From assembly GCA_030425645.1 (NCBI GenBank), contig JAUHZK010000003.1, forward strand, positions 1 to 64,000: 64,000 nucleotides of DNA. Reading direction: 5' to 3'. The position numbers were made by a program, and so were the translations under genes. A model generated the notes under the pieces. That model did not search any database. It was not told where the DNA came from and saw only the letters and a list, made by a program, of their open reading frames with translations. This document shows, piece after piece, positions 1-12,541 of the stretch. Position 1 is the stretch's first letter. Each line of letters starts with the position of its first letter. Origin of the DNA: Gammaproteobacteria bacterium. GTDB lineage: Bacteria; Pseudomonadota; Gammaproteobacteria; JAPPPA01.

Positions 1-122
1 CAACCAAGCAGAAGAAAACTGTTGTCGAGTATGGGGCACACATTCCAACCTTGGTGAAGATGGCAGAAGATGGGCTGTTAGATTAAGTTTTACTTAATTC
101 CCACCCTCAAATGCAAATAGCC
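1..122. mobile_element. Possible end of an insertion sequence (partial)
   Basis: Seen: the truncated DUF1302 gene matches its two paralogs up to the MYGISFN residues, and the match stops at about position 122/123. From there the DNA has no DUF1302 counterpart. A plus-strand reading frame runs in from the window edge and stops at 86, 36 bases short of the junction, as a transposase gene often does near an IS end. Read inward on the minus strand, the element would begin GGCTATTTGCATTTG. Inference: this is one terminus of an IS inserted into the DUF1302 gene. The partner inverted repeat and any target duplication lie outside the window, so a simple deletion junction remains possible. Confidence 0.42.
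3..86 (+). CDS. C-terminal tail of an unidentified protein, possibly a transposase (partial)
   Basis: An open frame enters from the left edge and ends with TAA at 84-86. It gives about 27 residues ending in the acidic tail KMAEDGLLD. I do not recognise the family from so short a tail. Its position just inside a break in the DUF1302 gene is why a transposase is suggested. It could also be the end of an unrelated gene brought next to DUF1302 by a rearrangement. Confidence 0.35.
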   Translation, partial: TKQKKTVVEYGAHIPTLVKMAEDGLLD

Positions 123-1718
123 GTTAAAAGAGATGCCGTACATATCAATGTCTTCAGGATATTCTAGGAATATCGCTGCCGTATCCACCTTAGATAACGC
201 GCCTAGAACAGCGGCGTCATCGGCTTCAATGTTTACGTCCGGATCTTCATTGGCACTAAACAAGGTCGAAAAAACGGTACTCAACACTACCTCTTCAAGA
301 GTGGCATTAGCGAGATTTCCGGGGATAGAAAGCACGGTACCGGCAACACCACCCAGCAAGGTCAAGAGGCCGTCTACCGCACCAATACCCGTATTAATTG
401 GTCCACCAGCCGGGATGGTTTGTACACTGGTTGCCTCAGAGGCGATAAATGACGCATAGGGCAAACGCGAATGGGTGCGGGTAAAGTGGAAACCAAACTC
501 GGTGTCGTTCAGCCACTCGGCGTAGTAGCCAAATTTAATACCAAACTGGCCATCGTCGCGCGCAAACTGCGTATTAGCACGACAAAGCGTACGACCATTT
601 GAGCCGTTACTTCCGCCAGAAACCACATTGGCTTTATACGGGCCAAACTGCTCTAGTAGAGCTTCATCATAAGTGTTGCCGTTTGAGTCCGTAGTGGCAG
701 AAGTGGCTACGCCACCACAAAGGCCACCGCGATCTCGGTAGGCCTGATGGGCTGTATCTTGGTCGACGTAGTCACCTAAATCTTGCAAGTTCGATGGATC
801 TTCAGGCTCTTTGCCAAACGACAGCATGGCGTAAGAAGCGCCCACACCAGCAACATCAGAAGTAGAGAAAAAGCTGCCCACCGGCGGCAAGGTCACTGGC
901 CGCCAATCCATTTGGTAAAAGCCATCAACCGACAGGTTGTCGGTCAAGTCCATGCTGACTCGTAGCAATTCAGTCGGCGTAAAGAGCTCTTTCAAATCAG
1001 AGCCGGGCGTGTTCAAGCGAATTAAGCTCGGCGCATTTACCGAGTTAATCGAGTTAACCACAAAGGTCAGGCTTTCGCCCCAAGAAATCAGTTGCTTGCC
1101 GTAAGAAATAGACAGGGTACGGTCAAGCACATCCCAATCGCTGGCGATATACAGGCTTTCTAAAGCGTTGGAAAAGCCAATTTCATCCTCGACGGCTTTA
1201 ATGCGCTGGGTGTTTTCAGGCTGAAAAACCGCATCCGGATGGCTTTCTTGATAATCAATCGCGGTAGGGTCATAGAAACTAATAGTACGCCCCGCCAAAC
1301 TCCAGTTTTCCCAGGTCAGACCAAAATCGATAGTGGACTTCAAGGCCGCATGAACCACATCACCTTTTTCGTAGTTCAAGTTGCCGTTGTCAGCATTCTG
1401 GGTAAAGGTGCCTTGCGCGTCGACAAAGGCTTGGTGTTCCGCCGCGTCAATCACACAGCCGCCTAATAAATCCGATATGGGATCACTAGGGCCGCCATTT
1501 TGCGCGTCTGGGCAGAGTTGCGTCTGGCCGCTGGAGGTAGGAATGTTACTGCGCTTAGCAACGAGATCGCGATCGATATTCTCGGCCCGCCAAGTGGCAC
1601 CCGCACTAAGCAATACGTCTACATTGCCTTCTATATCGCCCCATTCAAAGTTAAATGACAGGGCCGCTGTCGGACAAATAGCGGCCGCAACCGCGAACGC
1701 CAGAATGACTCTCCGCAC
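90..1718 (-). pseudogene. DUF1302 family protein, 3'-truncated
   Basis: This is the N-terminal ~530 residues of a DUF1302 protein, a large secreted family predicted to form outer-membrane barrels, of unknown function. It has a signal peptide (hydrophobic core about residues 4-20, mature start FNFEWGD) and the same blocks as the full copies downstream: GNLNYEKGDVVHAA, a SWGESLTFVVNSINS stretch, and SFGKEPEDPSN. The paralogs are about 870 aa. This copy leaves the shared sequence after MYGISFN and ends ten residues later, so about 330 residues and the C-terminal barrel-closing strand are missing. The likely start is the GTG at 1716-1718, seven bases after a GGAG, the same geometry as the next copy; a TTG twelve bases earlier is less likely. 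Probably a broken gene that can no longer assemble. Confidence 0.75.
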
Positions 1719-1811
1719 GATAGTCTCCAAAGGTAATTAGAATAAATTTGAGTTCAAATTCGGATTCTATCGCGGAACCTTTGACTAAATAAAATAGTCC
1801 TAAATTGTTGA

Positions 1812-4430
1812 CTAAAAGCTATACCGGATATCGATCGCATAGTGATCGCGATCATTTTCTTGGTTACGCTCACCAGCACCGGTGTACCAGGTGTACTTAA
1901 AGTTCATCGTCCAGTCACCGCGGGTAAACTCACTTCCCGAGATATAACGCTTCCGCCCTTCAACAAAATTGCCACCAGGGCCCGGCGAGTTGCCATTGAC
2001 GTCAACAAACACGCCAAACAGCTGCTTTAAGTTAGCGCCAAAAATAAGGTTGTTATATTCCAAGAAGGTCAACACACGGAAACCCCAAGAAAACGAAGTC
2101 GCGAAGGTACTTCCAGGCTCTGAGGTGGGTGGTTGGCGCAATAGACCAACGGCACAGTCGCCGTGAATACCGCCACCTTGAAGCAAGCCCAGAACACCGT
2201 TAACGAGCCCAAACGGGTTAGTAATCGGGTTATCGCCTAGACCCAACGCATCGTAAAGAACGTTGTTTACTTGGTTACAAGGCGTGGTGCCATCAGAGCC
2301 AGTATTACGCGCATCCAATTGCGCACGGCCTTCGCCGTACCAATTATCATCGCCGGGCGCTGAAAACTGCAGCTCGTCTAACGATGGCATATCAAACACC
2401 TGTGTCGCTGCCACGTCACCAATAATCACCCACTGGTCAGCACCAAAGGGGTTCTGCCCAGTTGAGTAAAGCAAGGTTGACGAATAATTAGCAACCGGCA
2501 AACGCTCGTAACCGCGAATAATGGAACCAGCCTCAATAACCGGCGTACCCACAAAGGTGTAACCAGCGTCGGCACCATTTTGACCATTGGTTGGATCCAA
2601 GGCATTGCGGTTAGTTTGGTAAATACCGTTCGGTCCGCGACCATTATTCTGCGCCCAATACTGGTCATAATTTAAGTCGCCACCGTGGCGATAAGCTTCT
2701 ACGTAGGTTGGCGCTGCTGCATCACGCGACTGACCAAACACCGGGCTTAGAGCAAACAAAGTGAGGTCGGTAGTACTAATTTGTAGCGGCATATCCGGAC
2801 GGTACGCCACCTCGCCGGAGACGGACACATCGCCCACCGTGGTGTTAAAAGAGATACCATACATTTCAATGTCCTCGGGGTAGTCCAAGAACAGCGCCAT
2901 GGTATCGGCACGCGTTAAGGCACCCAAAATATCAGCATCATCTTCTTCTAGCGCCGAACCGTCTGTGCCACCGGGTCCGCTATGGTCGGTGCCTAGCAAG
3001 AACAAAGTACTGAAGACGGTATGCAGCTGATGGTCACCCGCATCGTCATTAATATCGGCGGCAATAAAGCTAGCGTAAGGCAGGCGCGAGTGCGTATTGC
3101 TGTAGTAAAAACCAAACTCGGTATCATTTAGCCATTCTGCGTAATAGCTAAACTTCACACCCCACTGCCCTTCGTCAGGTGCGGCGTTATCAGCTAGCCG
3201 GCAAAAAGTACGGCCGGCCGTTTCGTTAGCGTCTTCACCCAGTAGCTGCCGCTCGGCTTGGTACGGCCCGTACTCCGCAAAGCGGTCATCCACCTGACCA
3301 TCAGGGTTATTAACATTGCCAAACGCAGCATCGGCGGCCTCGTTCTCAACGCCATTGGCGTTACGATCAGAAATCTGGCGGCGATAAATTTCTAAGTCAT
3401 TATTAATACAGCCGCGAGTCGACGCCGCCAAGTTACCTGGCAAATCATCTTGGATATTGCTTGGGTCTTCTGGCTCTTTACCGAACGACAACATGGCATA
3501 GCTACCACTCAAGCCGGCCACATCAGTGGTCGAAAAGAAGTCACCACGAGGAGAGATATTAATCGGCTGCCATTCCAGCTGATAGAAAGCTTCCATGGCC
3601 ACGTTATCGGTTAAATCAATACCGGCCTTGATAAGCGAGGTAGGTTCAAACAATTCTTTAAGGTCTAGACCCGGGGTATTCAACCGCACTAGGTTAGGCA
3701 CATTCACCGAGTTAATGGAATTAACCACAAAGGTCAGACTTTCACCCCAGCCTATCGTTTGATTACCGACTTTGACGGAGAGTTCACGGTCCCAAAGGTC
3801 CCAGCTGCCGTAGGCATAAAAGTCTTCTAAGCGCGCACTAAAGCCGATCTCGTCTTCTACCGACTTAGGCCGTGCGGTGCGCTCTGCCTGATGGATATGA
3901 TCTACATGGCGCTCTTCATAATCCACTGCAGTTGGGTCGTAGAAGGTAATCGCTCGCGCGAATAGACCGTAATCTTCCCAAGTCATATCAAAGTCGATGG
4001 TGGTTTTAAATGCGGCATGCACCACATCGCCTTTGTCGTAGTTCAAATTACCCTGATCGGTGTTTTGCGAGAAGTACCCGGGAGAATCAACAAAACGCTG
4101 GTGCTCGGCGGCGTTTAACACGCAGCCACCCAAAATATCTTCGTCTACATTAGTTCCGGTAGGAAGCGCGATCGACAAGCTCTCTTGGTTGGGGTCACCG
4201 CCGGTTTGATGGTCGGCGCAAAGTACCTCTTGCCCGGCCCCTACATTGTTAAACAGTGGATTACTGCGTTTGGAAATAATGCTGTAGTCGCGGTTCTCGG
4301 CGCGTACGGCTACGCCAGCTGACATCAGCACATTGACGCTACCCTCAACGTCACCCCATTCAAAATTAAAAGCTTGTGCGGCATTGCTATAACAAAGCGG
4401 TAACAACAATAAAGGGGCAAAGCGGCGCAT
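1812..4430 (-). CDS. DUF1302 domain-containing outer-membrane protein
   Basis: Full-length DUF1302 family protein of 872 aa. The signal peptide covers about residues 1-20, with a likely cut before FNFEWGDVEG. The chain is rich in aromatic and acidic residues in alternating patterns and ends HYAIDIRYSF. A terminal Phe after an alternating strand is the usual signal by which the BAM complex recognises outer-membrane barrels. The family is often found with DUF1329 lipoproteins, YCF48-like proteins and RND/MMPL exporters; its substrate is not established. Start: ATG at 4428-4430 with GGAG seven bases upstream; the in-frame TTG at 4442 overlaps that ribosome binding site. It is transcribed away from smpB. 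The 3' third is almost identical in residues to the copy at 7884-10514, pointing to duplication or gene conversion. Confidence 0.85.
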   Translation of the reverse strand: MRRFAPLLLLPLCYSNAAQAFNFEWGDVEGSVNVLMSAGVAVRAENRDYSIISKRSNPLFNNVGAGQEVLCADHQTGGDPNQESLSIALPTGTNVDEDILGGCVLNAAEHQRFVDSPGYFSQNTDQGNLNYDKGDVVHAAFKTTIDFDMTWEDYGLFARAITFYDPTAVDYEERHVDHIHQAERTARPKSVEDEIGFSARLEDFYAYGSWDLWDRELSVKVGNQTIGWGESLTFVVNSINSVNVPNLVRLNTPGLDLKELFEPTSLIKAGIDLTDNVAMEAFYQLEWQPINISPRGDFFSTTDVAGLSGSYAMLSFGKEPEDPSNIQDDLPGNLAASTRGCINNDLEIYRRQISDRNANGVENEAADAAFGNVNNPDGQVDDRFAEYGPYQAERQLLGEDANETAGRTFCRLADNAAPDEGQWGVKFSYYAEWLNDTEFGFYYSNTHSRLPYASFIAADINDDAGDHQLHTVFSTLFLLGTDHSGPGGTDGSALEEDDADILGALTRADTMALFLDYPEDIEMYGISFNTTVGDVSVSGEVAYRPDMPLQISTTDLTLFALSPVFGQSRDAAAPTYVEAYRHGGDLNYDQYWAQNNGRGPNGIYQTNRNALDPTNGQNGADAGYTFVGTPVIEAGSIIRGYERLPVANYSSTLLYSTGQNPFGADQWVIIGDVAATQVFDMPSLDELQFSAPGDDNWYGEGRAQLDARNTGSDGTTPCNQVNNVLYDALGLGDNPITNPFGLVNGVLGLLQGGGIHGDCAVGLLRQPPTSEPGSTFATSFSWGFRVLTFLEYNNLIFGANLKQLFGVFVDVNGNSPGPGGNFVEGRKRYISGSEFTRGDWTMNFKYTWYTGAGERNQENDRDHYAIDIRYSF

Positions 4431-4581
4431 GGCTTTCTCCAAAAGGCAATTTTTTAGGTTATAGATAGAGCAAGCCTAGTATATCGACTTGCTCTAGCAA
4501 GCGCGTTGACAATAGCGGCCAAATTATAGACAGCATCTGCCAAAACGCCGCGCAACTAGCCGCAGTCCGTAGCAGCGCAGG

Positions 4582-4587
4582 TATAAT
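4582..4587 (+). promoter_or_regulatory. Candidate -10 element of smpB
   Basis: A perfect TATAAT lies 38 bases before the smpB start codon. No good -35 box is visible at 16-18 bases upstream, so the assignment rests on the -10 hexamer and its position alone. Confidence 0.4.
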
Positions 4588-4625
4588 CGTGCGCCTAACA
4601 ATTACCGATCAAAGCTAACAAACCC

Positions 4626-5105
4626 ATGGCCAAAGCCAAATCTCAGGACAATAGCGGCACCGTAGCCGTGAACCGCAAAGCCCGCCACGATTACCTAATC
4701 GACAGCGAGTTTGAAGCCGGGATGGAGCTACTTGGCTGGGAGGTTAAATCCCTACGCGCAAAAAAGGTCAACCTGACCGACGGCTATGTCGCTATTCAGA
4801 AAGGTCAAGCCTGGCTAACAGCGTGCAACATTAGTCCCCTCGCCACTGTCTCTACTCACTTTAAACCGGAGCCAATGCGAGCTCGGCGGTTACTACTACA
4901 CCGCGAAGAACTTAATAAACTGATCGGCGCAGTCGAGCGCAAGGGGTACACCGTGGTGCCGCTTAAAATTTACTTCACCCGGGGCCTGGCGAAGCTAAAA
5001 ATCGGACTCGGCAAAGGTAAAAAACAGCATGACAAACGCGCCACCGAAAAAGATCGCGACTGGAAACGCGAGCAGTCAAGAATCATGAAGTCGGTGAACC
5101 GTTAA
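4626..5105 (+). CDS. smpB: SsrA-binding protein SmpB
   Basis: SmpB binds the tRNA-like domain of tmRNA and, with it, rescues stalled ribosomes in trans-translation. The 159-residue protein has the family hallmarks: NRKARHDY near residue 17, LGWEVKSLRAKK in the OB-fold core, and the basic tail GKKQHDKR followed by RDWKREQSRIMK, which folds in the mRNA channel of the ribosome. Length is normal. The start ATG lies within an upstream ccATGG context and is the only sensible one. The gene converges on ssrA across a shared bidirectional terminator, so the protein and RNA partners are neighbours. It is flanked by DUF1302 and a flavin enzyme, which have no known link to trans-translation. Confidence 0.97.
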   Translation: MAKAKSQDNSGTVAVNRKARHDYLIDSEFEAGMELLGWEVKSLRAKKVNLTDGYVAIQKGQAWLTACNISPLATVSTHFKPEPMRARRLLLHREELNKLIGAVERKGYTVVPLKIYFTRGLAKLKIGLGKGKKQHDKRATEKDRDWKREQSRIMKSVNR

Positions 5106-5252
5106 ACCACCGGCGGCCGGCGAACCAGCGCCGTCCATAGAGCTCGCCCTTGGGGCCCGTTGCGCGGTCCAAAGTCAGGCGGGCATTAACAGATAATCTG
5201 GCCGCTTTTGTAAGGCCTTCGGGGCATCTCAGCCACCCGGCCAAACCGACAT

Positions 5253-5289
5253 AAAAAAGGCCCCTGCCTAAACGGCAAGGGCCTTTTTA
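5253..5289. terminator. Bidirectional rho-independent terminator between smpB and ssrA
   Basis: Arms 5254-5263 (AAAAAGGCCC) and 5279-5288 (GGGCCTTTTT), with inner TGCC/GGCA and a five-base loop. The A-run on one side and T-run on the other make it work in both directions, serving smpB on plus and ssrA on minus. It ends only 4 bases from the tmRNA 3' end. Confidence 0.85.
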
Positions 5290-5292
5290 TGT

Positions 5293-5656
5293 TGGTGGAG
5301 GCGGGGGGAGTCGAACCCCCGTCCGCAAGCCCTCCATCTTAGGCTCTACATGCTTATCTCGTTATTAGTCTTACTACTGGCAACCCAACGAGCGGGGCAA
5401 ACCGGCAGCCAGCCCGTAAATTTTTAGCAGCTCAAAGCCGGGCTCAGATCACTGCGATTCTGTGTGGGATGAGTCCTGCTACCCGAGCGCACAGACACAC
5501 GTCGGACAGAACCTCTACAACAGGTTATTAAGCTGCTAGAGCGAAGTTTTCGTCGTTGGCAGTTAAATTGCCGTGTTACTGGATTTACGAGGTATGTAAC
5601 ATCCTCGACATGCACCTAGAGACTTTGCAACCCACGTCGAAGCCAAATACGCCCCC
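5293..5656 (-). ncRNA. ssrA: Transfer-messenger RNA (tmRNA)
   Basis: This is a one-piece tmRNA of about 364 nt, which enters stalled ribosomes as a tRNA-Ala mimic and then as a template for a degradation tag. The 5' end GGGGGCG (from 5656) pairs with CGCCTCC before the encoded CCA at 5293-5295. The T-arm GTTCGACTCCCC is next to the 3' end, and GGCTTCGACGTGG near the 5' end matches the D-like region. The tag frame at 5560-5528 reads ANDENFALAA and stops at TAA; it ends in the ALAA recognised by ClpX, and the AANDENxAL portion is what SspB binds. It lies convergent with smpB. Confidence 0.97.
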
Positions 5657-5666
5657 AGTGGCGCGT

Positions 5667-5672
5667 AGTATA
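5667..5672 (-). promoter_or_regulatory. Candidate -10 element of ssrA
   Basis: TATACT on the minus strand, about ten bases before the first nucleotide of mature tmRNA. The -35 region is poorly conserved. The short space to the next gene leaves this as the best -10 candidate. Confidence 0.45.
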
Positions 5673-5767
5673 GCGGATGCCAAGCCGTAAAAATGGCGGA
5701 ACTGCCAATCACAAGCTTCGACGCAATTCCTATAGTGCTTCGCATTCACCAGAGAGCCCATAAATCC

Positions 5768-6802
5768 ATGAAAACGCGCATTACCGAATTACTCGGCATT
5801 AAATACCCTATCCTTTTGCCCGGCATGAGCTGGATATCCAAACCCGAGTTGGTCGCTGCGGTGAGCAATGCGGGCGGCTTGGGAATTTTGGCGCTTGGCC
5901 CTCTGAACCCAGACCAAACAAGAGCCTCCATTCGGCGCATTCGCGAACTCACTGATAAGCCATTTGGAGTCGGCTGCACCCTGCTAATGCCCGGCGCAAA
6001 AGAGAACGCCGAAGTCTGCTTAGAAGAGCAAGTGCCGGTTATTAACTACTCACTTGGCAAAGGCGATTGGCTTTCGCAACGAGCGCATGAGTACGGCGGC
6101 AAAGTCATCGCCACCATCACCACAGTCAAACATGCAAAATCAGCTGTCGACTGTGGCGCCGATGCACTACTAGTGACTGGCCATGAAGCAGCAGCACACG
6201 GCGGCGAAGTGACATCCATGGTACTTATTCCAGCCATCGCTGACGCAGTTGATGTACCCGTGATTGGTTGTGGCGGTTTTGGTGACGGCCGCGGCCTTGT
6301 GGCGGCCTTAGCCTTAGGTGCCGACGGTATCGCCATGGGCTCGCGCTTTGCCACTTCAAGCGACAGCCCGCTACATCAAAACGTCAAAGAAACCGTGGTC
6401 GCAAAAGATCAACACGCCACCGTCTACTCAAAGAACTTTGACGGCATTCCAGCGCGTTACTTAAAAACACCCAATGCCGTTAAGTTAACCCGCAAACCTA
6501 TGAATTTCTTTGTCACCGCTATTAGGGCAACACAAGCCGCTAAATACGTTGGCCAGCCAATCTGGAAAATTCTAATTGGCCTATTAGCGGCGTTAGACAA
6601 AGTACGACTATTAGCCTATTTCGGCGCCGCCACGCCGAAGCTACAAAATGCTACCGAAAACGGTGATCTAGCAAGCGGCATGCAGTTTATTGGTCAAAGC
6701 CAAGGCTTAATCAAAGACATCAAGTCTGTTGAGGAAATCATGCAACGCGTGATCGATGAGGCTAAAGCCGCGCAAACAACCGCAGCCAACAAGCTAGGCT
6801 AA
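5768..6802 (+). CDS. Nitronate monooxygenase-family FMN oxidoreductase
   Basis: TIM-barrel flavoprotein of the nitronate monooxygenase / 2-nitropropane dioxygenase family (YrpB-like), 344 aa. The family oxidises alkyl nitronates, although many members have other or unknown substrates. Visible marks are the N-terminal GIKYPILLPGMSW strand, GHEAAAHGG with the candidate catalytic His, and the FMN phosphate-binding region GGFGDGRG followed by LGADGIAMGSRF. The C-terminal 90 residues are more divergent. The ATG at 5768 fits the family N-terminus; an in-frame ATG at 5693 would add 25 unconserved residues that overlap the ssrA promoter. The gene stops three bases before the convergent YCF48-like gene. 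Substrate cannot be told from sequence. Confidence 0.85.
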   Translation: MKTRITELLGIKYPILLPGMSWISKPELVAAVSNAGGLGILALGPLNPDQTRASIRRIRELTDKPFGVGCTLLMPGAKENAEVCLEEQVPVINYSLGKGDWLSQRAHEYGGKVIATITTVKHAKSAVDCGADALLVTGHEAAAHGGEVTSMVLIPAIADAVDVPVIGCGGFGDGRGLVAALALGADGIAMGSRFATSSDSPLHQNVKETVVAKDQHATVYSKNFDGIPARYLKTPNAVKLTRKPMNFFVTAIRATQAAKYVGQPIWKILIGLLAALDKVRLLAYFGAATPKLQNATENGDLASGMQFIGQSQGLIKDIKSVEEIMQRVIDEAKAAQTTAANKLG

Positions 6803-6805
6803 AAC

Positions 6806-7789
6806 CTACCACAGTGACGCAGCATCATTGAAGGGTACCGATCGCAACCCACGATCGGTACTCATCAATAGACGGCCCTCGTGAATTAGCAAGCCAGTAA
6901 TGGTTGCGTCAGTACCACTAGTTAGTTGCCTAAGCGATAAGGCTGCCTTATCTAAAGCTAACAAGGCACCATTGGCACCAGCTAACAACCAAGCCTGCTC
7001 AGTTTCTACGGAGGCAAAAAGCGAGTCGCTTACAGGCGCTTCAAGCAACCTCCAAGGCTCGCGGTAACCTTCGCTATAGGCAACTTTGCCGCCAAAACCA
7101 AACAACAGCACCGCGCCATCGTTCAAGGCTAAGGCACCGAACCAGGTGGACTCGAGCTCGGCATCGTCCTTATGCCAATCATCGCCATCATCAGACCAAT
7201 AAATACTGCCTAACTCACCGGCAACAACGAGCTCTCCGGTACTCAACTGGGCAATAGCATTTAAGGAAAAGTCTTCCGGCTCATCCCACTCTGGATCAAT
7301 ATAAAGGTCTTGGGGCAACCAGCGCCGGCCGCCATCATCACTCACCAAGTAGAGTCCGCCGCTGCCAACGGCATAGTGCCGATCACCAGCCACGGCTAAC
7401 AGATCCATAACCACTTGCGAGGACAAGCTCTGTCGGTGGCGTGGCGTCAACTCAGTAGAGTTAGATAGTTGATATATGGATTGCTGGTGACCAAGCAACC
7501 AAAGTCCTTCGTTAACCCGCCGCAGCCCGGTCCATGCGGGCAGCGACGATGAGCCAAGGCGCTTCCAACCTCTAGCGTCACATTGCGCAGTTGATGGTGG
7601 GCCCAATTGTGTTAGCGGCCGTTGCAGCACATCACCGCGCGTAGACGCCAGCAACAATTCACCGTCATGAATGGTGACACCCGTTAGTACTTCACAAGCC
7701 GCCAAACGGTCAGCAGCACTGGCTGCCATGCTTAATATCAGTCCTAACAGCAGGCCCGGCAGTGCCAGCGCATTACAGCAACCTTTCAT
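6806..7789 (-). CDS. YCF48-like / BNR-repeat exported protein
   Basis: Predicted secreted or periplasmic beta-propeller of 327 aa. A signal peptide covers residues 1-25 (hydrophobic core LLLGLILSMAASA). Asp-box/BNR-type repeats are visible as SDDGGRRW at 150-157 and SDDGDDWH at 199-206, the pattern of YCF48-like proteins. The start ATG has GGGGA six bases upstream. It lies downstream of a DUF1302 gene on the same strand, an association common for this family, where a DUF1329 protein and an RND/MMPL exporter usually complete the set; neither is here. A terminator between the two genes suggests separate or attenuated expression. Function unknown; a role in envelope export or assembly is inference from neighbours elsewhere. 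Confidence 0.75.
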   Translation of the reverse strand: MKGCCNALALPGLLLGLILSMAASAADRLAACEVLTGVTIHDGELLLASTRGDVLQRPLTQLGPPSTAQCDARGWKRLGSSSLPAWTGLRRVNEGLWLLGHQQSIYQLSNSTELTPRHRQSLSSQVVMDLLAVAGDRHYAVGSGGLYLVSDDGGRRWLPQDLYIDPEWDEPEDFSLNAIAQLSTGELVVAGELGSIYWSDDGDDWHKDDAELESTWFGALALNDGAVLLFGFGGKVAYSEGYREPWRLLEAPVSDSLFASVETEQAWLLAGANGALLALDKAALSLRQLTSGTDATITGLLIHEGRLLMSTDRGLRSVPFNDAASLW

Positions 7790-7837
7790 GACATTTCCCC
7801 GTTAATACACTCTTATCGCTAGGCAGCATACAGAAAC

Positions 7838-7869
7838 AAAAACGGGCCGCGAAAGCGACCCGTTTTTTT
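7838..7869 (-). terminator. Rho-independent terminator after the third DUF1302 gene
   Basis: Outer arms AAAAACGGG (7838-7846) and CCCGTTTTT (7859-7867) surround a small CGC-GAAA-GCG hairpin with a GNRA tetraloop. It starts 15 bases after the DUF1302 stop codon. It sits in front of the YCF48-like gene, so readthrough would be needed for co-transcription. The A-run on the other side makes it potentially bidirectional. Confidence 0.8.
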
Positions 7870-7883
7870 AGTCATCTTAAACT

Positions 7884-10514
7884 CTAGAAAGAGTACTTAA
7901 TATCAATACTGTAATGGTCACGGTCATTCTCAAGGTTACGATCAGCCGCGCCGGTGAACCAGTTGTATTTCAGGTTAAGCGTCCAGTCACCACGAGTAAA
8001 TTCACTACCCCATAAGAAACGCTTGCGACCTTCTACAAAGTTGCCACCAGGTCCAGGAGAGTTACCATTTACATCAACAAACACACCAAATAGCTGGTTC
8101 AAATTCGCACCAAAGATCAGGTTGTTGTATTTCAGGAATGACAAGATGCGGAAGCCCCAAGAGAACGGAGTCGCAAAGGTGCTGCCTGGCTCAGAAACCG
8201 GCGTCTGACGGAGCAAACCAATGGCACAGTCGGTGTGTAAAATACCCGCACCGCCACCACCAAGGAGAGCGCCCAAAATGCCCTGCGCCGTATCCAGCGG
8301 CGTCGCCCCGGTAATACCAATCGCGTTGGTTAAAACGTTAGTCGTGTCGGTACAAGATCCGCCACCATTGGCCTCAAACTGGGCGTCAATCTCAGCACGA
8401 CCAAGGCCGTACCAGTTATCGTCTCCAGGCGCACCGTATTGCAGCTCATCTAAACTCGGAAGGTCAAACACTTGAGTCGCACCAATATCACCAATAATAA
8501 TCCACTGGTCAGCGGCAAATGGGTTCGCACTGGTGGCGTATAGTAAGGTGCTCGAGTAGTTCGCCACTTTATGACGCTCATAGCCGTGAATAATTGAACC
8601 AGCCGCAATTTGTGAGGTGCCCACGGTATCCGAGCCACCTAAACGGTTACTGGCATAAATACCATTTGGACCACGGTTGTCATTTAAGCCCCAGTAAGCG
8701 TCATAGCGGCTTGCACCGTTAGCTACAGCGGCATCGAAAGCGGCTTTATCAGCACCGGTCAGCCCAGGTGCGTGACGATAAGCCTCAATATAAGACGGGC
8801 CCGCGGCATCCTTGGCTTGGCCGAATGCCGGGCTTAGAGCAAACAAGGTCGCGTCTACGGTACTAATCTGTAACGGCAGGTTAGGTCGGTAAGCGACCTC
8901 ACCAGAAACCGACAAATCACCCAAGGTGGTGTTAAATGAAATACCGAACATCTCGATATCTTCTGGGTATTCCAGGAATACGGCCGCGGTATCGACTCGG
9001 GTCAACGCACCAAGTACATCGGCGTCGTCTTCTTCAATACCAGCACCCACTTCATCACTGTGCTGAGTACCCGCAGAGAACAAAGTACTAATAGCGGTAT
9101 GCAGCGCGATATCAGCAGGATCACCAGACGACAATCCATTAGCGGTGTCGTTAATGTCAGTAGCGATAAAGCTCGCATACGGTAGACGTGAATGGTAGCG
9201 CGAGTAATAGAAACCAAATTCGGTGTCGTTTAACCAACCGGCATAGTAGTTAAACTTAACACCAAACTGACCATCATCCTTAGCGGTACGATCTTTGGTA
9301 CGACAGATCGTACGGCCAGCTGTCTCTTCACCCTCACGCTCCGCTTGGTAAAGACCAAACTCTTCTAGGCGGTCATCAATCTGAGTCTCGGGGTTGCCGG
9401 CATCACCAAAGGCAACATGATTACTCCGATAAAGCGCATCCGATGGGTTAATACAACCCTCCGCATAACGCGCCACGCTGGCCGCTGAGTTAGGGTCATA
9501 AACCGGCAAATCGTCTTGAATATTCGACGGATCTTCTGGCTCTTTACCAAACGCCAACATGGCGTAACCCTGGCCAGCACCAGCCACATCAGAAGTCGAG
9601 AAGAAATCACCAATAGGCGGCAGGATAATCGGCTTCCATTTCAGCTGATAAAACGCTTCCATCGAAACGTTATCAGTTAGGTCGATACCCGCCGTAATCA
9701 TCTCGGTGGGTGTGAACAGCTCTTTCAGGTCCAGACCCGGCGTGTTCAAGCGAATAACGTTCGGCGCGTTGGCCGAGTTAATAGAGTTCACCACGAAGGT
9801 TAAGCTCTCACCCCAAGACACAACCTGCTTACCAACGTTAACTGACAAGGTGCGGTCAAACACATCCCAGCTACCGTAGACATAAAAGTCTTCCAAGCGG
9901 CTGCTGAAGCCAATTTCATCTTCAACCGCCTTTGAACGGGGCGTGAGTCCTGGCTGATGGACTGCATCAATATGACGCTCTTCATAATCAACCGCGGTAG
10001 GATCGTAGAAAGTAATAACCCGCGCAAACAAGCCGTAGTCTTCCCAGGTCATATCTAGATCAACAGTGGTCTTAAACGCCGCTTTTACTACATCACCCTT
10101 GTCGTAGTTCAAGTTGCCTTGGTCAGCGTTCTGGGTAAAAGAACCCGTGGCATCAACAAAGCGCTGGTGTTCTGCGGCATTTAATACGCAACCACCAAGC
10201 AGATCTTCGTCCACGGTAATAATACCCAGTGGTACCGCGACCGACTCTAAATTTTGGTCACCGCCTGTCTGCTGGTCAGCACAGAGCACTTCTCCATGCT
10301 CATCTAGGCGGTCAGGGCCGCTGCGCTTAGACACAATACTGTAATCAACGCTTGAAGCACGAAACGTTGCGCCAGCCGACATCAAGACATTGACACTGCC
10401 TTCAATATCGCCCCACTCAAATCCAAACGCTTGTACATTTGAAGATGCCAGAGCCATAACGCCAGCAATACTGGTTACGGCGGCTTTTCGACCGACTAAG
10501 TTAATGATATTCAC
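7884..10514 (-). CDS. DUF1302 domain-containing outer-membrane protein
   Basis: Second intact DUF1302 copy, 876 aa. It has an N-terminal signal sequence (hydrophobic residues 10-28, mature region from FGFEWGDIEG), the shared GNLNYDKGDVV and SWGESLTFVVNSINS blocks, and a C-terminus HYSIDIKYSF with the terminal Phe typical of BAM-assembled barrels. It starts at GTG (10512-10514), supported by GAGGAG seven to eight bases upstream. It differs from the 1812-4430 copy mostly in loop-like regions (residues about 50-85, 350-430, 600-660), while the last 130 residues are nearly the same. Family function is unestablished. It has its own terminator and a 299-base upstream region, so it is probably a single-gene unit. 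Confidence 0.85.
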   Translation of the reverse strand: MNIINLVGRKAAVTSIAGVMALASSNVQAFGFEWGDIEGSVNVLMSAGATFRASSVDYSIVSKRSGPDRLDEHGEVLCADQQTGGDQNLESVAVPLGIITVDEDLLGGCVLNAAEHQRFVDATGSFTQNADQGNLNYDKGDVVKAAFKTTVDLDMTWEDYGLFARVITFYDPTAVDYEERHIDAVHQPGLTPRSKAVEDEIGFSSRLEDFYVYGSWDVFDRTLSVNVGKQVVSWGESLTFVVNSINSANAPNVIRLNTPGLDLKELFTPTEMITAGIDLTDNVSMEAFYQLKWKPIILPPIGDFFSTSDVAGAGQGYAMLAFGKEPEDPSNIQDDLPVYDPNSAASVARYAEGCINPSDALYRSNHVAFGDAGNPETQIDDRLEEFGLYQAEREGEETAGRTICRTKDRTAKDDGQFGVKFNYYAGWLNDTEFGFYYSRYHSRLPYASFIATDINDTANGLSSGDPADIALHTAISTLFSAGTQHSDEVGAGIEEDDADVLGALTRVDTAAVFLEYPEDIEMFGISFNTTLGDLSVSGEVAYRPNLPLQISTVDATLFALSPAFGQAKDAAGPSYIEAYRHAPGLTGADKAAFDAAVANGASRYDAYWGLNDNRGPNGIYASNRLGGSDTVGTSQIAAGSIIHGYERHKVANYSSTLLYATSANPFAADQWIIIGDIGATQVFDLPSLDELQYGAPGDDNWYGLGRAEIDAQFEANGGGSCTDTTNVLTNAIGITGATPLDTAQGILGALLGGGGAGILHTDCAIGLLRQTPVSEPGSTFATPFSWGFRILSFLKYNNLIFGANLNQLFGVFVDVNGNSPGPGGNFVEGRKRFLWGSEFTRGDWTLNLKYNWFTGAADRNLENDRDHYSIDIKYSF

Positions 10515-10813: not shown

Positions 10814-11575
10814 TCAATCGCTACTCAACCAAATCATCGAAATTTGACGACCACAAGGATTGGCTTGCCCCTCCGAGCTACTTCCGGCGCGACGATAGGA
10901 ATAAAAGCGCGGCTCACTGACGGTACAAAAGTCGCCGCCAACAATCTGCGGCACACCGGCTGCGCGCAAACGCAAACGCGCCAATTCGTAGATGTCCGCT
11001 AAATACTTACCCTGGCCGTTCTCTATGAATGCTGATTGCGCTGCTGCGTCGCAAGAGACAAATGCTTGGCGCACCTCCTCTCCTACTTCGAAGGCCAATG
11101 GGCCGATCGCCGGCCCCAACCAGCACTGCACATCGGCGGCGTTCACCGCCATCGCCAACAACGTTTGTTCCAACACACCAGCACAAAGGCCACGCCAGCC
11201 TGCGTGCGCCGCTGCCACCACCGGTGCCGAGCCTGGGCAATAAAACAAAACAGGTAAACAGTCTGCCGTTAATATGGCCGCGGGGCGCCCGATCTGCCGG
11301 GACACCACAGCATCAGCGCGCATATCGGGCCCATCGCGGCCGACTTCAGCAACCACAGTGCCATGCACCTGCTGCAACCATAGCGGTTCATGAATACCAA
11401 GCGCCATTTGCAGCCGCTGCCGATTTTCTCTGACCGCGGCGACATCATCACCCACATGCGTGGCGAGGTTAAAGGCACCGTAAGCGGCCGATGATTGCTG
11501 GTTATAACCATAAGAATAAGCCGCGTGAACGGATGACGGCAGCTCCCAATCAGGCACCAACAGCGGCAACGACAT
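10814..11575 (-). CDS. pgeF: Purine nucleoside phosphorylase PgeF (YfiH, laccase-like domain)
   Basis: YfiH/PgeF family protein of 253 aa. Known roles of the family are zinc-dependent purine nucleoside phosphorylase/adenosine deaminase activity and, in E. coli, correcting misincorporated L-Ser in peptidoglycan precursors. The metal ligands are present: His71 in LQQVHG, Cys106 in TADCLP and His124 in HAGWRG, very near the E. coli positions. It lies three bases downstream of rluD on the same strand, the common rluD-yfiH pair, so the two are probably co-transcribed. Older annotations call it polyphenol oxidase. Confidence 0.92.
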   Translation of the reverse strand: MSLPLLVPDWELPSSVHAAYSYGYNQQSSAAYGAFNLATHVGDDVAAVRENRQRLQMALGIHEPLWLQQVHGTVVAEVGRDGPDMRADAVVSRQIGRPAAILTADCLPVLFYCPGSAPVVAAAHAGWRGLCAGVLEQTLLAMAVNAADVQCWLGPAIGPLAFEVGEEVRQAFVSCDAAAQSAFIENGQGKYLADIYELARLRLRAAGVPQIVGGDFCTVSEPRFYSYRRAGSSSEGQANPCGRQISMIWLSSD

Positions 11576-11578
11576 GAG

Positions 11579-12541
11579 CTACTCGGCGCTCTCTGTGTCA
11601 ACTCGCAAGGCCGCGATTAAGGCCTGCATATCCGCCGGCGGCGGCACCTGCCAATCCATCACCTCTCCCGTTGCTGGGTGAACTAACCCCAACCGTCGCG
11701 CATGCAAAGCCTGGCGATTAAAACCACGCAACATTGCTTCTAGCGCCGGCGTAGTGCCAGCAGGAATAGCCAAACGCCCTCCATAAACAGGGTCGCCAAC
11801 GAGTGCGTGTTTTTCACTCGCCATATGAATACGAATTTGGTGAGTACGCCCAGTTTCCAGTTTCAAGCGTAAGCGTGTGTGCGACTTAAACCGCTCCAAT
11901 ACGCGGTAATGTGTTACCGATTCACGCCCACCCTGGCGAATAGCCATGCGAGTACGATCATTTGGATCACGCTCAATGGGTTTATCAATTGTGCCGCCAG
12001 CTACCAAATGGCCGCGCACAACAGCCTCATACTCACGATTAATTTCGCGCTGCTGCAACGCCTCCACCAATACCGCATGGGCCTCTAAGGTGCGTGCAAC
12101 CACCAATAAACCGGTGGTGTCTTTATCGATTCGGTGTACCAAGCCAGCACGAGGCAAAGCATCTAGCTCTGGTGCATGGTGCAATAGTGCATTCACCAAG
12201 GTGCCACTGGTATTGCCAGCACCCGGGTGCACCACTAAACCGGCTGACTTGTTAACAATAATGAGATGCTCGTCCTCATAAACGATGTCGAGCGGAATCG
12301 CCTCAGCGCGAACACCCGGATCCAGCACCAAGTTAGCCTGCAAGTTGAGCTGGTCACGATGCTTTACCACATCACGCTGATTAGCTAATTCGTCATTAAG
12401 CTTCAGCTGCCCAGCAGCAATCCAAGCCTGCAAACGGCTACGCGAAAACTCAGCAAACAACTGAGCCGCCGCCTGGTCCAAGCGCAAACCTTTACTAGGT
12501 AAATAGACGGATGCGGATTTTTCTACATTTATGCTGGTCAC
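11579..12541 (-). CDS. rluD: 23S rRNA pseudouridine(1911/1915/1917) synthase RluD
   Basis: Converts three uridines in helix 69 of 23S rRNA to pseudouridine. The 320-residue protein has an N-terminal S4 RNA-binding domain (about residues 15-80) and a catalytic RluA-type domain with HRIDKDTTGLLVVA, placing the catalytic aspartate at residue 139 as in E. coli RluD. It is divergent from bamD, an arrangement widely kept in gammaproteobacteria, with the 151-base gap holding both promoters. It is followed at once by pgeF. Confidence 0.95.
   Translation of the reverse strand: MTSINVEKSASVYLPSKGLRLDQAAAQLFAEFSRSRLQAWIAAGQLKLNDELANQRDVVKHRDQLNLQANLVLDPGVRAEAIPLDIVYEDEHLIIVNKSAGLVVHPGAGNTSGTLVNALLHHAPELDALPRAGLVHRIDKDTTGLLVVARTLEAHAVLVEALQQREINREYEAVVRGHLVAGGTIDKPIERDPNDRTRMAIRQGGRESVTHYRVLERFKSHTRLRLKLETGRTHQIRIHMASEKHALVGDPVYGGRLAIPAGTTPALEAMLRGFNRQALHARRLGLVHPATGEVMDWQVPPPADMQALIAALRVDTESAE

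Follow-up and report, generated by a model that had tools for sequence, protein, structure and literature searches.

Candidate AmeA-type outer-membrane barrels of the DUF1302 family around smpB-ssrA in a gammaproteobacterial genome

The DNA analysed here (the window) covers the initial 64 kb of contig C9 in a gammaproteobacterial genome of 2.75 Mb and 16 contigs, and its subject is a set of three DUF1302 genes (copies 1-3) placed around smpB and ssrA. Most likely, these genes specify barrels of the type of AmeA, the DUF1302 component of the AmeABCD system, acting at the outer-membrane step either of HAE3-type RND export or of a transfer route for lipids or other hydrophobes. The basis of this reading is computed: gene content, homology, synteny, a phylogenetic tree, a transposon insertion and silent-site saturation. 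The result amounts to a lineage-specific expansion in an already known type of family.

Gene set, predicted barrels and partner genes

A sequence-only reading of the window had placed three related genes around smpB-ssrA, two of them full length, and the PF06980 matches agree with this in number, place and completeness. The count does not hold for the family as such, since the genome contains at least seven DUF1302 genes: eight matches were found, representing six full-length genes and two halves of one more. Besides copies 2 and 3, three full-length genes lie on contig C2 and one on C11. Copies 2 and 1 form a tandem pair, with an NSS symporter gene on one side and smpB on the other. NCBIfam provided no name for the DUF1302 genes or for the YCF48 protein described below, and a scan of viral_contigs for further DUF1302 sequences returned none.

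Copies 2 and 3 both have a signal-like N-terminus and a terminal F with hydrophobic residues at positions -3, -5, -7 and -9 (copy 2 ends in YSF); the BAM-type ending noticed earlier in both intact copies is thus a beta-signal-like C-terminus. An AlphaFold2 model of copy 3 (m03e6ea20cfa2), built on a ten-sequence alignment, comprises 18 strands besides a signal helix; the nine long loops, of 12-126 residues, share one side, and the turns on the opposite side have 2-8 residues. Its top Foldseek matches are AlgE (1.4e-8) and porins. The barrel suspected from the sequence was therefore recovered, at low overall confidence, and the copies are probably outer-membrane beta-barrels with the topology of this model. 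A sequence search of the PDB for DUF1302 gave no match and hence no solved structure.

One gene in the interval between ssrA and copy 3, left unnamed in the sequence-only reading, codes for a homologue of the pump-associated protein YCF48. It directly follows copy 3 on the same strand, whereas none adjoins copies 1 and 2. The product matches YCF48 chains in the PDB by phmmer as well as the AmeC genes of RND cassettes; its AlphaFold2 model is a propeller with a predicted local distance difference test score (pLDDT) of 80.6, for which the best Foldseek match is YCF48 (5ojr, E 3.8e-11). Together with its orthologue in the sister species (genome G001), to which it is only about 40% identical, it occupies a long branch. 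Rates within this one locus (5693-7789) are very uneven, the adjacent nitronate monooxygenase (NMO) being about 90% identical between the two species. The junction of copy 3 and the YCF48 gene bears a hairpin, and so does this junction in G001 (z -3.0) and in G026, a genome from another family of the class (z -3.1, without the T run); the hairpin would fit attenuation yielding more barrel than downstream product.

In G026 (locus L085) the gene order is sucC, sucD, nadE, bamD, rluD, yfiH, DUF1302, YCF48 and RND pump, the last three on one strand. The order in the window is the same up to YCF48, and the RND pump is not next. Because G026 has DUF1302, YCF48 and the pump at the same rluD-yfiH site, copy 3 and its neighbour look like the rump of an AmeABCD-type cassette (AmeA-AmeC-AmeD) whose pump gene is no longer adjacent.

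The usual pairing of DUF1302 with DUF1329 (AmeB), stated in the sequence-only reading, was borne out by a neighbourhood survey over a class-wide sample, in which full-length DUF1302 genes were inspected for DUF1329 within 1 kb. Such a partner was found for 21 of the 25 genes outside this genome, with at least one case in each of 18 genomes; in this genome the count is 0 of 7, the nearest DUF1329 gene being 25 kb away. No DUF1329 gene adjoins copies 1-3 (the nearest on the contig is at 180 kb), nor does any HAE3 RND pump (AmeD), and no MMPL match occurs within the window. The claim that DUF1329 and exporters are absent is thus right for the immediate surroundings of the three genes; even so, copy 3 has an AmeC-like partner beside it, and the genome carries DUF1329/RND cassettes at other places. 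There are four DUF1329 genes in all, and contig C2 carries a DUF1329-YCF48-RND cassette (AmeB-AmeC-AmeD) without DUF1302. In G001, three strong DUF1329 genes are located on short contigs other than those of the DUF1302 genes. The neighbours of other DUF1302 paralogs include MMPL pumps with sterol-sensing domains, hydroxylases of fatty acids, flavin monooxygenases, short-chain dehydrogenases/reductases and acyl-CoA dehydrogenase; by gene content, these surroundings are a setting of lipid or hydrophobe metabolism.

The barrels could alternatively be stand-alone porins of the FadL type, for uptake or efflux of hydrophobic or lipid compounds with no DUF1329 or RND partner. The lack of any DUF1302-DUF1329 adjacency in the genome would suit such porins, as would the copy at C2:63296, which has no nearby pump match and whose counterpart in G001 precedes a gene for a lipase-like lipoprotein. 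Nevertheless, the genome retains its four DUF1329 genes and an AmeBCD cassette devoid of AmeA, the YCF48 partner still stands beside copy 3, and in Pseudomonas putida a barrel/DUF1329 pair and a pump pair are unlinked and yet give one phenotype (PMC10866462). We consider stand-alone porins unlikely, and AmeA-type barrels with partners encoded elsewhere remain the preferred reading.

Two further members of these families deserve mention. A 563-aa DUF1302 gene is present in both species (L076:7273-8964; L083:6135-7826); in G001 it is flanked by mnmE-like and mnmG-like genes, precedes the lipase-like lipoprotein gene, and is a second case of the family placed within a housekeeping cluster. On C11 (G000, C11:222500-225200; L078:6586-9202) a DUF1329 gene has its C-terminal 350 residues 81% identical to the DUF1329 protein of the C2 cassette; its N-terminal part is diverged and displaced by about 1.2 kb, and the gene is possibly broken or interrupted.

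Age and divergence of the copies

In the maximum-likelihood tree, copies 1-3 and their G001 orthologues form one clade (support 100/99), within which orthologous pairs are recovered for copy 3 (c3/o3, 99/97) and copy 1 (c1/o1, 100/100). These pairs imply that the duplications predate the split of the two species. The tree thus indicates a genus-only clade produced by old duplications, and the origin by duplication proposed from the sequence agrees with it. No orthologue of copy 2 turned up in G001; the contigs of that genome break at this point.

The conserved frame of copies 2 and 3, with the last ~130 residues taken as nearly identical, had been ascribed to duplication followed by gene conversion or by selection on surface loops. 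Their C-terminal parts are indeed similar, but not near-identical: 99 of the last 130 residues (76%) coincide, against 70% identity overall in the codon alignment, and nucleotide identity there is about 70-78% with silent sites saturated. At four-fold degenerate sites the identity is 0.36 overall and 0.33-0.44 in C-terminal windows, i.e. at saturation. The longest identical runs do not exceed those of permutations (p 0.45 for nucleotides, p 0.72 for silent codons), and no tract of high identity extending to silent sites was seen between the two copies. Recent gene conversion is thereby rejected, the silent sites being as saturated in the C-terminus as everywhere else.

Divergence is nonetheless uneven, as the sequence-only reading had noticed for loop-like parts. 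Identity between copies 2 and 3 is 80% in strands and 66% in loops; between copy 3 and its G001 orthologue the values are 90% and 73%. No gaps occur among 227 strand residues of copies 2 and 3, the indels being confined to loops. Since silent-site identity is about equal in strands and loops, the difference reflects constraint. The ratio of nonsynonymous to synonymous substitution rates (dN/dS) is 0.04-0.06 for the pairs with estimable dS. As to selection on surface loops, relaxed constraint is all that is shown, dS being otherwise saturated, and loops 231-269 and 817-830 are among the best-conserved parts, as expected of constriction loops.

A model of antigenically variable outer-membrane proteins, homogenised by gene conversion and with surface loops diversified by selection, would also have barrel parts more alike than loops and loop-confined indels, and very old conversion could give the observed clustering of each lineage's copies in the tree. 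It would, however, have to accommodate a C-terminus as saturated as the rest, the want of long identical tracts, orthologues that pair together against paralogs and a dN/dS of about 0.05, while its recent form is already refuted; we regard it as very improbable. Judging from substitution patterns, the similarity of the barrel parts appears to be kept by purifying selection, with the long outer loops drifting faster. The mechanism offered earlier is thus corrected: similar ends result from constraint, not conversion.

Transposon insertion in copy 1 and the flanking genes

Copy 1 was inactivated by insertion of an ISL3-family transposon, which cut the gene in two. The short copy is therefore not a diverged paralog. 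Its native coding sequence stops at the transposon junction, the final codons of the open reading frame 90-1730 being transposon-derived, and its C-terminal half is situated at the very end of contig C3 (C3:114636-115592; PF06980 profile 346-541), with the opposite end of this transposon type coming after it. The two transposon ends form an inverted repeat, identical at 16 of 16 terminal bases, and the target duplication matches at 8 of 8. The empty site rebuilt from the joined short flanks is in frame and reads YPEDIDMYGISFNTTVGDLSLSGEVAYR, the same as in the paralogs. In G001 the orthologue is intact (862 aa, contig C247, 77% identical), and an NSS symporter gene adjoins both this orthologue and the C3 half. 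Simple degeneration into a pseudogene was rejected, since the reading frame is open in each half and the gene is broken at the transposon junction.

It may be objected that copy 1 is incomplete merely from a break in the assembly, with no insertion in the cell: the first base of the window is also a contig end, and a stretch of exactly 127 bases, a k-mer overlap, is common to C13 and C9. Such a break alone is insufficient to explain the paired, opposite-oriented ends of one transposon type, the 8-bp duplication and the exact in-frame join of the flanks, and we give this explanation very little credence. With the insertion accepted, the assembly is compatible with C3 and C9 being still joined via one transposon copy, or with their later separation by recombination between copies.

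The assignment to the ISL3 family follows from the ISL3 transposase, terminal inverted repeats and 8-bp target duplication; as in other ISL3-family insertion sequences, the transposase carries DDE_Tnp_ISL3, zinc ribbon and helix-turn-helix domains. In contrast to these, the complete copy on C13 (about 8.0 kb; G000:C13:32473-40501; L123, L026) also contains the genes of a type I restriction-modification system, namely hsdM, two frames resembling hsdS, and hsdR, all located between the left end and the transposase gene. They are a defence system carried as transposon cargo. The ends of the C13 copy are identical to those at copy 1 over the available sequence. Diverged ends (86-94%) of the same type lie at or near contig ends at C5:19703-19836, C14:1-130 and C10:1408-1531, and for this reason the transposon type probably caused several of the assembly breaks.

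Coordinates of the features described are collected in Table 1. Of the flanking genes, smpB and ssrA are on opposite strands and convergent.

Table 1. Features of the window around the three DUF1302 copies
Feature	Position	Strand	Evidence or remark
Right end of ISL3-family transposon	1-122	+	Identical to end of C13, where the transposase is intact
Transposase remnant, last 27 codons	3-83	+	Intact on C13: DDE_Tnp_ISL3 5.9e-56, NF033550 9.2e-89
DUF1302 copy 1, N-terminal part only	90-1730	-	PF06980 E 4.5e-92, profile 4-350 of 541
Terminal inverted repeat	about 107-122		Right end of ISL3-family transposon
8-bp target-site duplication GTTAAAAG	123-130	.	Same 8 bases at the other junction, contig C3
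DUF1302 copy 2, 876 aa, predicted outer-membrane barrel	1812-4442	-	PF06980 2e-142, profile 5-541 of 541
smpB (flanking)	4626-5105	+	PF01668 1.7e-58
ssrA, tmRNA (flanking)	5293-5656	-	Rfam RF00023 1.6e-88; ARAGORN tag ANDENFALAA
Nitronate monooxygenase / FabK-like flavoprotein (NMO; flanking)	5693-6802	+	PF03060 2.2e-60
YCF48-like beta-propeller, divergent AmeC-type periplasmic protein	6806-7789	-	PSII_BNR E 0.0035 (weak Pfam match)
Hairpin, 13-bp GC-rich, then T run, between copy 3 and YCF48 gene; terminator or attenuator	7838-7867	-	z -2.7
DUF1302 copy 3, 876 aa, predicted 18-stranded outer-membrane barrel	7884-10514	-	PF06980 1.9e-147, profile 2-541 of 541
yfiH and rluD, conserved anchor of the copy-3 site	10814-12541	-	Order same in G001 and G026 L085

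Proposed role and known systems

According to the proposed mechanism, reached by comparison with AmeABCD (PMC6394551) and the Tween 20 genes of P. putida (PMC10866462), the DUF1302 barrels would provide the outer-membrane step for hydrophobic molecules, powered by HAE3-type pumps whose genes lie elsewhere. Old duplications expanded the family in this genus; copy 3 with its YCF48 neighbour would be the remnant of a cassette whose pump gene no longer adjoins; and the unlinked AmeB-AmeC-AmeD genes on C2, which have no DUF1302 of their own, may serve the barrels. We are less certain of the transport of hydrophobic compounds and of the use of unlinked pump parts such as those on C2 than of the barrel type itself. 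The earlier suggestion of specialised outer-membrane proteins for hydrophobic compounds is probably right as to the broad class and wrong as to the conversion mechanism attached to it.

The separation of barrels and pumps may point to a shared chassis. Taken further, barrels uncoupled from AmeABCD-type cassettes would have multiplied in this genus, several of them now interchangeable, placed among housekeeping loci and sharing one or a few AmeB-AmeC-AmeD chassis, each with a different hydrophobic cargo; we offer this as a speculative extension that is rather doubtful. In any case, at least seven DUF1302 genes, none of them beside DUF1329, and one barrel-less AmeBCD cassette constitute a natural test of specific versus shared parts.

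Several observations weigh against AmeA-type barrels as the explanation. The copy-3 clade does not group with the DUF1302 gene at the same site in G026 (approximately unbiased (AU) test, p 0.001); simple orthology of the two is thus rejected although the site is common, which may point to turnover at this place. DUF1302-YCF48-RND stands at the rluD-yfiH site in just one relative from outside the genus, and no yfiH, rluD or pump was seen near the other DUF1302 genes inspected for it in G346 and G144. The hairpin may separate transcription of copy 3 from that of the YCF48 gene. The barrel model has a mean pLDDT of 49, reaching 70-90 in strands only, on its alignment of 10 sequences. Finally, no sequence feature points to a substrate.

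Among known systems, the best structural match of the predicted barrel is AlgE, the alginate exporter of Pseudomonas aeruginosa, which is 18-stranded, as is the copy-3 model. The resemblance is one of fold only, with 6% sequence identity to copy 3 and a TM-score of 0.29/0.50. Functional hints on DUF1302 are few, namely monoterpene tolerance, Tween 20 use and laminin binding. The last concerns PA3923, a DUF1302 protein described as an outer-membrane laminin receptor (PMC6890786). The use of Tween 20 by P. putida requires PP_0765/PP_0766 (PMC10866462). There, PP_0765 (DUF1302) and PP_0766 (DUF1329) share a phenotype with PP_2018/PP_2019, and barrel and pump genes are unlinked as they are here; in contrast to this genome, where barrel and DUF1329 genes are also unlinked, those of P. 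putida have consecutive locus tags. Monoterpene tolerance is conferred by AmeABCD in Castellaniella defragrans (PMC6394551). AmeA is a DUF1302 outer-membrane protein comparable to copies 1-3, and AmeC is a COG4447/YCF48-like periplasmic protein such as the one that follows copy 3 on the same strand. The systems differ in that the full-length copies have 876 aa against 605 in AmeA, and in that neither AmeB (DUF1329) nor AmeD (HAE3 RND) stands beside copies 1-3, whereas C2 has B-C-D without A.

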